From positions 213,839 to 277,838 of the forward strand of contig NPFB01000017.1 in assembly GCA_014084085.1 (NCBI GenBank): a DNA stretch of 64,000 bases. The letters run 5' to 3'. The stretch is from Hondaea fermentalgiana (Eukaryota > Sar > Bigyra > Thraustochytrida > Thraustochytriidae). This document shows positions 53,437 to 58,740 of this stretch, piece by piece (the stretch's first letter is position 1; every line of letters begins with the position of its first letter). Made by a program: the position numbers and the translations under genes. Under the pieces are notes generated by a model. That model was not told where the DNA came from and made no database searches. It saw only the letters and a program-made list of their open reading frames with translations.

Positions 53437-56400
53437 ATGAGCAGCAAGGCCAACTCGCGACGGGCAAGTCGACGAGGTCTGTTGCTGTCGCGAAGCAGCA
53501 TTCTCGCGGGACTGGCGCGATTGCTCAACGAGAGCAGGGCAGACGTCGCACGCGAAGACGCAGAGGACGACAACGAAGAGGACACCGACGAGCTTGCCGG
53601 CACCCAGGAGACATCTCTTCGACTCGAGACACTGCAACTCGTTGCCCGCGACGACGGTGGCGTGATCAAGAGCCCGGATGATCTTCTTTCGCAGGTGCTC
53701 CAAGATCGAGAGCTCTGGAATATCCTTCGCCGGAATCGTTCACTTGAAGCATTGCACCTCGCTCGTAGCGTGCTCTCTGCCAACGTGACCGCGCAACTGT
53801 CAAAAACGCTGCGCGCAAGCCGTGGACCCGCCTCTGTTAATCTGGAGGGAGCTCAGCTAACCAGTGTGCGCGCCCTGTCATCGCTACTGCAAGACGCCCA
53901 GCGCGGTGCGGCGTGCCAAAGTCTAAATCTCGCCTCGGTGTACACCTCTGCAGGTGAGGCTCCCTTCAAGGTACTGTCTGGACGCGCTTCAACCGTTTGC
54001 GTTGGACCCGGTCGAACCCGCATCAATTTTCATGGAGCTTTTACGACCGTGGCTCTCAAGGAGATGGCAACCCTGCGGACCGGAAACCGCAGCTTTTATT
54101 ACGAGGTCAACCTTGCTGGTTGGCCCTCCGAAGCCTCTTGGGCTGATATTCGTATTGGTTGGACCGACACCTGGTGGGTAGCAACTACATTCGAGGATGC
54201 CACGCGGTCAAAAGGCGGCGCTGGCGTCGGTGACAACCTCTATAGCTGGGCGTTCGATCCCTTTCGAGCCCGCGCCGTTGTGGACAATACGGAGGCCAGC
54301 TTCGGGGCGCACTGCAAAACTGGAGACGTAATTGGCTGCTATGTCGATCTTAGCGCCAAGGTCATCCGATTCAGTGTCAATGGCGTGTGGGATCTGCCGT
54401 TTGGCACCGCTTTCCAAGACTTCTCGCTCTGGAAAGGCATCGTTCCCGCTCTCACGGTCGCCTCGGCACGTCACTATGCCTCTTCAGTGGAGGTCAACCT
54501 CGGCCCGAACTTTGCTTATCCTCCAGACCGCGCAGCCGCACCAATTGCTGAATGGTTGCAACGCCAAAAAGACAGTCTCCTGCGCAGCGCACTCCAAAAA
54601 ATGGCAGAAAGACGCACAAATAGGAGCCTGCACTCTTTGCTGCTTTCGGGTCTCTCGTTCTTGCAGAATCGTCAGCGTCCGCACAGTGTCCGATATCTCT
54701 GCCAGGCCTTCCAAGGACTTCGGCATCTGGATCTCTCAAATTGCAAGCTTGGCGACGGTGGATGCGCATCGCTCTGCCGAGAGCTTTCAGACGGGCTCCC
54801 TGGTCTCCTCACACTGGATCTTTCGTCCAACGAGTTAACCTACAAAGGAGCGAAGAAACTTTCGAGAGCACTCTTGCACAGCGGTATCAAGTATCTCGAT
54901 TTGTGCAGCAATCAGCTCGCTTTCACCGGAGATCGCGCCCGAGCGCTCGAGCAGGGTCCAGCTGCAGATGCCTCGGAACTGGAGCTCGAGTGGACATCCA
55001 TCGTGGGCCCAGGCACTCAACTTGCTGTAATTGACCTGTCATGGGCCGAAATTGACGCCATCTCAGCCTGTGCTCTCATGTCGAAGCTCGCCACCAACGA
55101 TACAATACTAGGCCTTCGTCTTGATGGAAATCCGCTCACAGGACAGGTTCTTTCGTCCCTGGCCCAGATGCTTCGGGAAAACCGTACCTTGCTTCATCTC
55201 AGTTTGGTTTCCGCCTCGATCTCAGGCGATTGGAACTTGCTTTCCCAGCCACTCTTTGACATCTCAGAACCAACATGCAGCGTTCTGCAGGCTCTCGATC
55301 TTTCGGGCAACCCGATATGCGCCGATGTCTTTGCAGATGTCGACGCTTTTCTCTCGGGCCAAAGTGCTCTCAGACGTCTCAGTGTCGCCAAGGTCGCACG
55401 GGATCATGCTTTGCAACGCCAAAGATCAGCCAAGAAGAAAGCCGAAGCCGCACAGCGCCTGGTGCGAGCTCTGGCAACTTCCTTGCCCACTGTACAGCTT
55501 TCGCTAAGCATTGAATCATTCTCGCAGGCGCAAAGCTTGGGAAGCGCGCTTGGGACCCAAGCGGGGCTCGCTGTTAAACAGCTCGAGCTTGCAGGTACGG
55601 TGCCGTTGCTAGATACCGTGCTTCAATCTATTGCCGAGGACGCGCCTGCGGCTCTTTGCAGGCTAGCTGTCCGCGTGCAAGCGAGCTCCAACGATGATTC
55701 GCTTCCTTGGAAAGGACTCTGCGATGTGCTCGAGGCACTGCAGCTCGACGTTCTCCGCATTGAGGGCAGTGGGGACCACGATAGCCTATCAAGCGTGAAC
55801 GCGTCTCGAGATTCTTTTGTGGAGAGTCTCGCACGAAGTGACACGCTTCACATTTTCAGTATTGCAAAGGCCTCCTCGACTCTGCGCATCATTTGGGAAG
55901 CTTTGCTCGACGCTTTCGCCGCCAGTTCGAGCCTCAAGCATGTGCGAATCGAGAATTGCAGCCTTCGAGCAGGCTCCATGGCTTTGCTCGCGCGTCTTGT
56001 CCGAGGTACGACGCCAATTTCATCAATTAAATTTGCACGAGGAAACGAAGCGTCTCGTGCCGCGGAGAGCCTCATTCGTGACTTGCTGAAGGTCTCGACG
56101 AGAGCGCGCCCTCGCCGCTGCCGCGAGCTCCTCTTACACGGAAGATACCCGGATCTTGATGCTTTTAGGCTTACAGACTTGGGGTTGGGTTTGGTCGCCC
56201 GTGATCTTCCTCTGCTTGGCGCCCTCCTGAGCTGGGTCAGACATGAGGTTCTCGGCCGCAGTCGCGGTCCGCTCGAGATAACAAACACGCTTGTCTTGGA
56301 CGGCTCCAACGCAGGGAGAGTGGAGCAAGATTCTGGTCGCCTCGATCTCGAGCAAAACACGATGGAAGAACCTCTGGTGCTTGGTGAAGATCTCGTCTTC

Positions 56401-58740
56401 CAAGGCCAACTGACTATTTCGAACTGGCGGAGCGACATCAGATTTGCTCCTCCGTTACAGGGTATGCGCCGCTCCTGGCGTGCCATTGGCCTCCATTTTA
56501 TTGACTGTCCTCAGTTGACTAGTCTTCCACGTGGTCTCGAGGTCGCAAGCTTGGTCGTCCGAGGCTGCCCTGCGCTCACCACTCTGCCGGAAGATCTTCG
56601 CGTGTGGACGATGCTCGTTTTGGAGAATGTCCCAAAGCTCGAAAGGCTCCCTCTTCAGATTGACGTGGATCACCTCGAAGTTCGAAACTGCGTAGCTCTA
56701 GAAAGTGTCATTCACGTTCGCGTTCGCGATACTCTAGTCCTTTCCCAGTGCGGCAAGCTGACGAGTTTGCCGGGAGGCATGCATCTGAACAAGCTTGAGA
56801 TTACAGAATGCTGGAATTTGCGCTCGAACGTCGAGACCGCGCATGTCCAAAAGCAACTTTGCTTGCGCTCGCTGCCTGTGCGCTGTCTCTGTGAGGGTCT
56901 TGAGCTGCAAGACTGCTTGTTGGACGATTGTCCTCAGCTGGAGACCCTCCCTCCTGATCTGGAGGTCTACGGATCTTTCAAGTTGATTCGTTGTCCACTC
57001 GTGAAAGCCGTGCCAAGTGGCGTGCGCGCAGAAATTATTTCGCTCGAGTCTCTTACTGCGCTTACGGGAGTGCGTACCGGTGTCTCGGCACAGCATAAAC
57101 TTCTTGTCGCAGACTGCCCTGCGTTGGGGCCGCTGCCTGAAACCATTTTGAGCGCAGGGCGGCAGCACGTGGAAATTCGAAGTTCGGGTCTCCAAGCCTT
57201 TCCCTATGCGCCCGAGCTCTTGTCCTGTCACATAATGCAATGCGCCGAGTTGCTCGAGTTGCCGTCATCGTTACGAGTCAAATTTGAGCTTCGCCTCGAG
57301 CAGTGCGGTATTCTGCAATTGCCTGAGTCTCTTCAAGTTGGCAGTCTGCGCGTCTTTCAGTGCCTTAACTTGATGGAAATCCCTCCTCGTGCCTATTGCC
57401 GAGGTAACATGATCATCGACTCGTGTCCGAGTGTGGAAGAGCTGCCGGACGTCCTCAATTTGCGCGGCTCATTGGGCCTTCGCAAGCTGCCTTCGTTGCG
57501 AAGTCTGCCCGACAATGTGCGCGCTCACGCCAGAATCGATATTCGGGATTGCACGCACCTGGAAAAGCTTTCGGAGCGCATGCGTGCTGCTAGCCTCGTG
57601 CTTGAAGATAATCCCGAGCTATGGCTCATTCCGGAATCCACGCGGATTGCGTCAAGCATTCAAACTCGAAACTGCAGCTCACTTCACAGCATCCCAGACA
57701 GTGTGCTGAGGAACGTTCAGCGCGTTGTCGTGGACGAGGCATCCCCGATCGGCCGCGATGCAGACTTGGAGTTCCTCGAGGCCCGATGCGCCGCATTGCA
57801 GACGAGGTTGTACATTAATGTGACTGACGATGAGGACGAGGATCGAGACACGGAACATGAGCGATTGGATGAGGCTGTGGCGTATTGGGAGACGCACGCT
57901 GGCGTGACACCCGAGCTCGAGCTGGAAAGCGAGCTGGACAGCTTTTACCACTCGTCCGTTCTTGGTTTTCTGAACCTGCTGCGTCGAAGCGCAGAGTTTC
58001 GACGGCCTGATCTTCGTGAGGGCCTAGCTCAGCGGGTCGTGGAGCTTTTGCGCATTCTCAATGAGAACCCTGATGGTGTCCGTGAAGACTTGCTGTCACG
58101 CATTTCGGATGCCATCGATTCATGTTCGGACAAGCCTATCTGGGCTCTTAACGACATGTATTTGATGACACTTATTATCAGGGCCCGAGGTAACCGGGAC
58201 GCTCTTCGCTCGCTTGGGAAGCGCGTTATGCGACTGCAAATCGTACGCGATCAGGCAGCACAGCATCCTGGCGCCGATCAAGACGACGTGTGTGTATACC
58301 TTCGTTTTGAGATTTCGCTGCGCGAGTCGCTCGACTTGCCCGTGTCCTCGGTCGCTATGCTCTATCGTACCTTTGTGACGGTGACCCCTGAGGAGATTGA
58401 GAAGGCTCGCCAGGCAGCGCTTGGGGTAAGCCAAGCCGAATTCGAGACGTGGCTTGGTGCTTGGCCGGAGTGGGAGCGGCAATTGCGAGCAGAGGCAGCA
58501 GCGACAATTCGATATGAGACCCTGGATGCGGAAGTCCTCTCCCGGCGCTCGAGTCTCCGAGCCTTTAGCGGCGAACCGATGGATCATCCCGTTATGGTGG
58601 CGCGACGCGGGCCTTGGGAATTATCCGAGTTGCTCGATCGCTGGGTCGTGACAGGACTGGACTTTGCCAATGTGGCCCTGGAACCTTCTGAGTTTATCCG
58701 CAGCCTGCACCGTGCCTTGCCGTACGAAACCCGAAAATGA
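53437..58740 (+). CDS. SPRY / LRR / LRR / NEL-type E3 ubiquitin ligase-like protein
   Basis: A 1767-residue protein from ATG 53437; the frame before it starts at a TTG. Order: an N-terminal region with weak LRR helices (1-180), a SPRY/B30.2-like domain (about 190-350, NRSFYYEVNLAGW, DVIGCYVDLSAKVIRFSVNG), and ribonuclease-inhibitor-type LRRs (about 415-650, LRHLDLSNCKLGDGG, LLTLDLSSNELTYKG). After a linker come short LRRs of about 20 residues (about 1018-1440, LTSLPRG, LTTLPEDL, LERLPLQ). The C-terminal 290 residues match the NEL ligase class: SSVLGFLNLLRRSAEFR, SCSDKPIWALNDM, LGKRVMRLQIVRDQA, VCVYLRFEISLRESLDLPVS and FETWLGAWPEWERQL. The catalytic CxD is Cys1563-Ser-Asp1565. NEL enzymes transfer ubiquitin through that Cys, with the LRRs choosing targets. 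No signal peptide or TM is seen, so it is predicted cytosolic. Confidence 0.85.
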   Translation: MSSKANSRRASRRGLLLSRSSILAGLARLLNESRADVAREDAEDDNEEDTDELAGTQETSLRLETLQLVARDDGGVIKSPDDLLSQVLQDRELWNILRRNRSLEALHLARSVLSANVTAQLSKTLRASRGPASVNLEGAQLTSVRALSSLLQDAQRGAACQSLNLASVYTSAGEAPFKVLSGRASTVCVGPGRTRINFHGAFTTVALKEMATLRTGNRSFYYEVNLAGWPSEASWADIRIGWTDTWWVATTFEDATRSKGGAGVGDNLYSWAFDPFRARAVVDNTEASFGAHCKTGDVIGCYVDLSAKVIRFSVNGVWDLPFGTAFQDFSLWKGIVPALTVASARHYASSVEVNLGPNFAYPPDRAAAPIAEWLQRQKDSLLRSALQKMAERRTNRSLHSLLLSGLSFLQNRQRPHSVRYLCQAFQGLRHLDLSNCKLGDGGCASLCRELSDGLPGLLTLDLSSNELTYKGAKKLSRALLHSGIKYLDLCSNQLAFTGDRARALEQGPAADASELELEWTSIVGPGTQLAVIDLSWAEIDAISACALMSKLATNDTILGLRLDGNPLTGQVLSSLAQMLRENRTLLHLSLVSASISGDWNLLSQPLFDISEPTCSVLQALDLSGNPICADVFADVDAFLSGQSALRRLSVAKVARDHALQRQRSAKKKAEAAQRLVRALATSLPTVQLSLSIESFSQAQSLGSALGTQAGLAVKQLELAGTVPLLDTVLQSIAEDAPAALCRLAVRVQASSNDDSLPWKGLCDVLEALQLDVLRIEGSGDHDSLSSVNASRDSFVESLARSDTLHIFSIAKASSTLRIIWEALLDAFAASSSLKHVRIENCSLRAGSMALLARLVRGTTPISSIKFARGNEASRAAESLIRDLLKVSTRARPRRCRELLLHGRYPDLDAFRLTDLGLGLVARDLPLLGALLSWVRHEVLGRSRGPLEITNTLVLDGSNAGRVEQDSGRLDLEQNTMEEPLVLGEDLVFQGQLTISNWRSDIRFAPPLQGMRRSWRAIGLHFIDCPQLTSLPRGLEVASLVVRGCPALTTLPEDLRVWTMLVLENVPKLERLPLQIDVDHLEVRNCVALESVIHVRVRDTLVLSQCGKLTSLPGGMHLNKLEITECWNLRSNVETAHVQKQLCLRSLPVRCLCEGLELQDCLLDDCPQLETLPPDLEVYGSFKLIRCPLVKAVPSGVRAEIISLESLTALTGVRTGVSAQHKLLVADCPALGPLPETILSAGRQHVEIRSSGLQAFPYAPELLSCHIMQCAELLELPSSLRVKFELRLEQCGILQLPESLQVGSLRVFQCLNLMEIPPRAYCRGNMIIDSCPSVEELPDVLNLRGSLGLRKLPSLRSLPDNVRAHARIDIRDCTHLEKLSERMRAASLVLEDNPELWLIPESTRIASSIQTRNCSSLHSIPDSVLRNVQRVVVDEASPIGRDADLEFLEARCAALQTRLYINVTDDEDEDRDTEHERLDEAVAYWETHAGVTPELELESELDSFYHSSVLGFLNLLRRSAEFRRPDLREGLAQRVVELLRILNENPDGVREDLLSRISDAIDSCSDKPIWALNDMYLMTLIIRARGNRDALRSLGKRVMRLQIVRDQAAQHPGADQDDVCVYLRFEISLRESLDLPVSSVAMLYRTFVTVTPEEIEKARQAALGVSQAEFETWLGAWPEWERQLRAEAAATIRYETLDAEVLSRRSSLRAFSGEPMDHPVMVARRGPWELSELLDRWVVTGLDFANVALEPSEFIRSLHRALPYETRK

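Follow-up and report, generated by a model that had tools for sequence, protein, structure and literature searches.

A NEL domain followed by a predicted U-box-like module in a SPRY and leucine-rich repeat protein of the thraustochytrid Hondaea fermentalgiana

The stretch of DNA analyzed here (the window) comprises 64,000 nucleotides of contig NPFB01000017.1 of the thraustochytrid Hondaea fermentalgiana (Stramenopiles, Labyrinthulomycetes), from position 213,839 to 277,838. It contains an open reading frame (ORF) that runs from an ATG without internal stop and codes for 1767 residues; its features are listed in Table 1. A first-pass annotation had placed a NEL domain, the catalytic domain of a group of bacterial E3 ubiquitin ligases, at the end of this protein, behind a SPRY domain and a eukaryotic-type set of leucine-rich repeats (LRRs). 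In agreement with this, Pfam recovered the SPRY domain and the LRR set, and the NEL profile PF14496 matched the protein with an E-value of 2.3e-26, scoring 93 bits where the cut-off is 24. When the C-terminal piece was compared with PDB sequences using phmmer, all 12 matches were NEL effectors, the best being IpaH9.8 (E 3.9e-10), and Cys1563 aligned with the cysteine of their C-x-D motif, as had been proposed. When 41 protist-type NELs were aligned with 40 bacterial ones, both Cys1563 and Asp1565 proved invariant (41/41 and 40/40, respectively), and the protist-type rows keep them at ∼40% identity. The catalytic subdomain is predicted to have the NEL fold, and model residues 8-225 share the fold of the bacterial effectors IpaH, SspH, SlrP and NopM, which likewise carry LRRs in front of a NEL core with the C-x-D motif. 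The NCBIfam IpaH model NF046045 gave 34.9 bits, far under its 550-bit cut-off; the window protein is therefore a relative of NEL proteins but no IpaH itself. Unlike these effectors, the window gene is non-bacterial, contains additional SPRY and LRR parts and falls on its own branch of the NEL tree (see below).

Table 1. Features of the NEL gene in the window (nucleotide positions are those of the window).
Feature	Residues	Nucleotides	Strand	Basis
Whole ORF: SPRY, LRR, short LRR, NEL, U-box-like tail	1-1767	53437..58740	+	Reading frame and Pfam
SPRY domain	220-355	54094..54501	+	Pfam PF00622, E 2.1e-12; phmmer against PDB, E 9.8e-14 (residues 232-343)
First LRR set, ribonuclease-inhibitor-like	about 397-595	54625..55221	+	Pfam LRR_6, E 3.1e-9
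Second LRR set, repeats of 20-21 residues	about 1010-1460	56464..57816	+	Period test
NEL catalytic domain	1507-1689	57955..58503	+	Pfam PF14496 match
C-x-D motif	Cys1563, Asp1565	58123..58131 (Cys1563 codon, 58123-58125)	+	Alignment
U-box-like C-terminal module (predicted)	1704-1767	58546..58737	+	AlphaFold2 models, structure matches, profile comparison

The whole of the C-terminal 290 residues had originally been assigned to NEL. This holds for the catalytic core, but the last ∼65 residues are U-box-like by predicted fold. Bacterial NEL effectors end in two long helices, the thumb for ubiquitin-loaded E2 (E2-Ub; residues 623-697 of SspH1), whereas the AlphaFold2 model of the window tail (predicted local distance difference test, pLDDT, 92-93) shows a beta hairpin and a helix at this position, arranged as a U-box fold without zinc ligands. 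Comparison of the model with known structures returned U-box matches, and a weak match to the U-box was obtained at the profile level, so that structure and profile comparisons agree moderately well on a U-box-like tail. Pfam assigned no family, U-box PF04564 included, to any of ten tails up to an E-value of 10, and for this reason we label the module U-box-like and not U-box; a PDB sequence search with the tail returned nothing or weak IpaH matches. A profile built from the tails matched 40 of the 41 distinct protist-type family members and none of the bacterial NEL loci (0/56; E ≤ 10, ORFs of 61 loci, 56 of which had a NEL match). Given the beta-containing model and the lack of tail-profile matches in the bacterial ORFs, we rejected the reading of the tail as a diverged bacterial thumb. 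The window protein does not belong to the bacterial NEL subtype with its helical thumb; its membership of the NEL core family stands.

Apart from the predicted fold, the tail shares with the U-box ligases Prp19, E4B/Ufd2 and LubX, and with AvrPtoB, the register of a G-x-x-(hydrophobic)-x-D-P-V stretch. It differs from the U-box ligases in that it is fused behind a cysteine-type catalytic domain, lies under Pfam detection and lacks the loop-2 proline, which is replaced by Phe, Leu or Tyr in 40 of the 41 rows. The position preceding the invariant Gly, which we take to be equivalent to the E2-contact Ile of U-boxes, is hydrophobic in 40/41 rows. Assuming that the residue at the loop-2 proline position has the functional meaning known from U-box work, it suggests docking for hand-over of ubiquitin to the NEL cysteine and not direct RING-type transfer.

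The closest solved relatives of the SPRY domain, according to phmmer against PDB sequences, are SPRY regions of ryanodine receptors. The first LRR set matched PDB entries including ribonuclease inhibitor 1dfj (E 5.2e-6). Its assignment is based on the Pfam and PDB matches and not on its period, which was not significant in a crude shuffle test (reached by 749 of 2000 shuffles). For the second set, located N-terminal to NEL, the period of 20 residues was reached by only 7 of 2000 shuffles. The repeats in front of NEL had been likened to those of the bacterial effectors; while their length of 20 residues does recall the bacterial LPX repeats, no sequence homology to these was found (best PDB match, E 0.012; YopM, E 8.3).

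The first-pass annotation overlooked, besides the U-box-like module in place of the bacterial thumb, that the gene belongs to a family with at least 13 members. In the 36.0-Mb Hondaea genome, the NEL model detected 13 loci, which are spread over 12 contigs and all have the CxD motif; a protein search of the genome recovered the same 13. Each lies within one open frame, of 661 to 3546 residues (1242 from its Met for the locus on contig C95). Two further Hondaea NEL proteins (P0009 and P0021) are located on contigs outside the genome list, and the species therefore has at least 15 NEL genes. The parts preceding NEL vary: SPRY and LRRs in the window gene and on C173, an ARM repeat on C96, a sub-threshold SAM on C221, and other LRRs. 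A period of 20-21 residues N-terminal to NEL stands out in 5 of the 13 loci, namely the window gene and those on C184, C1, C88 and C95 (0, 1, 0 and 12 of 500 shuffles, respectively), and not in the other eight within the 420 residues tested. An importin/ARM-like front replaces the LRRs in the NELs L016 (on C96), P0012, P0014, P0019 and P0023. Contig C172 of genome G000 carries a head-to-head pair of NEL genes about 4 kb apart (621582-626866).

Three protein searches (16, 7 and 24 rows) yielded 36 distinct proteins, each with a precomputed PF14496 match, from Hondaea, records named Durusdinium trenchii, metagenome or assembly contigs, and one MMETSP transcript; from the latter it follows that a protist-type NEL is transcribed in a relative. 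Four protist-type NELs (P0019, P0023, P0010 and P0029) lie on contigs of about 10-11 kb, two named Durusdinium trenchii and two with the cut-off names 'SspH1' and 'ipaH7.8'; these are either dinoflagellate genes or thraustochytrid contamination. Bacteria were absent from the rows of these searches, which were word-limited, one scoring 8000 candidates, so that this absence is little informative. The same applies to 14 control genomes in which no NEL was found: these also lacked any U-box and therefore seem to be eukaryote-free. Sampling of bacteria was limited: the search for the family took in 398 genomes from a single phylum, of which 9 (including the chosen centre, G001) have a NEL, a patchy distribution; other phyla were reached only through motif scans, one of which contributed the best 80 of 152 loci. 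Using tblastn, the NEL of a paralogue matched plasmids of Serratia symbiotica (E 6e-9) and, more weakly, of rhizobia, Shigella and others. Scans with protist-type motifs matched 79 stretches of genome_contigs, none of them a relative. A viral source of the NEL was rejected, since the three stretches that matched in one such scan of viral_contigs did not include a relative either. A record titled Mycobacterium sp. KBS0706 (L034) contains a NEL that groups with rhizobial NELs and is perhaps mislabelled.

A tree was calculated for the NEL cores of the 41 protist-type and 40 bacterial sequences, leaving out 8 proteins that duplicate genes of their own genome and 16 bacterial duplicates or fragments. 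A single branch (support 100/99) parts the two groups; it is present in 100% of 200 bootstrap trees and, under midpoint rooting, has a length of about 2 changes per column. This separation argues against recent transfer; the two groups are thus ancient and distinct. The tree is unrooted, and rooting is not possible with these data; both directions of transfer are therefore allowed. The ancient horizontal acquisition put forward in the first-pass annotation is only one of the two and is not supported in the form proposed there.

A true NEL with its CxD motif in a eukaryotic SPRY-LRR protein makes an endogenous ligase likely, as had been suggested. We consider it probable that the window gene, a member of the NEL family of this thraustochytrid, encodes an endogenous cysteine-relay E3 ubiquitin ligase whose U-box-like module docks the E2~ubiquitin conjugate. 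Ligase activity of the protein is putative and any immune role hypothetical; the immune-like receptor of the first-pass annotation is not supported by the analysis. The LRR and SPRY parts would bind a target or ligand, the U-box-like module would dock E2~ubiquitin, Cys1563, assisted by Asp1565, would accept ubiquitin as a thioester, and ubiquitin would then pass to a lysine of the target. In RBR and HECT ligases, an E2-docking part passes ubiquitin to a catalytic Cys; the putative scheme, with every functional step inferred, places a NEL catalytic core in this logic, and the likeness is one of logic only. An excerpt of PMC12506513 also compares NEL with RBR and HECT, the NEL core being unrelated in fold.

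The missing loop-2 proline and the weak U-box profile match would also fit an active NEL ligase whose tail is a degenerate, protein- or ubiquitin-binding U-box, with E2~ubiquitin bound by the NEL core; a ubiquitin-binding U-box-like domain is described for IFT172 in the consulted part of PMC13290226. We regard this as rather unlikely, as the tail occupies the site of the bacterial E2-Ub thumb and the position equivalent to the E2-contact Ile of U-boxes is kept hydrophobic. That the family is large, expanded and varied in its fronts would suit a pseudoligase or scaffold that retains the NEL fold without transferring ubiquitin, an improbable reading given that the Cys and Asp of the motif are retained in every protist-type row despite the low identity. 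NEL being otherwise known from bacteria (PMC9320238, in excerpt), recent transfer of an effector gene has to be weighed as well, as has contamination of the assembly with bacterial DNA; both are highly improbable. The gene lies on a contig of 277,838 bases and is flanked by ORFs with eukaryotic domains (SPX/VTC, PQ-loop, CH, IQCH ATP-grasp and TFIIS_M); its GC content (0.563) and that at third codon positions (GC3, 0.589) lie within the ranges of eight other window ORFs (0.546-0.606 and 0.532-0.773, respectively), so that base composition gives no sign of recent transfer. The spread of the 13 loci over 12 contigs, the single branch between protist-type and bacterial NELs and the lack of a relative among the 79 genome_contigs stretches point the same way.

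Excerpts of PMC9320238 and PMC12506513 describe NEL as bacterial effectors without eukaryotic counterpart, and in a Giardia inventory (PMC7029713) PF14496 is named only as one of the models searched. NEL-like sequence has been claimed for a eukaryote before, in green-algal NLR genes (PMC7145615); unlike the case presented here, an LRR superfamily domain is called a NEL homologue there, with no catalytic core described in the portion consulted. Neither a protist NEL family nor a pairing of NEL with a U-box was found in titles and abstract beginnings of the open-licence PMC literature. A native protist NEL family, if true, would give eukaryotes another cysteine-type E3 class and would show that the NEL core can operate with a different E2-docking module; the origin of the bacterial NEL effectors would become testable by phylogeny and biochemistry. 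It is conceivable, though we hold it only tentatively, that NEL is an old protist E3 class and no invention of bacteria. Thraustochytrids would then have retained a native NEL family with its U-box-like E2 module, while the catalytic unit would have passed from such protists to bacteria, been given a helical thumb and been used as an effector. If so, the source of the 'novel' IpaH-type ligases would be explained.

Databases already label Hondaea proteins as NEL, P0017 having the UniRef name 'NEL domain-containing prote...'. Public gene models corresponding to L014 and L012 look mis-joined, P0013 continuing from NEL into tubulin; likewise, gene model P0026 exits the NEL gene within the tail and continues as LSm1.
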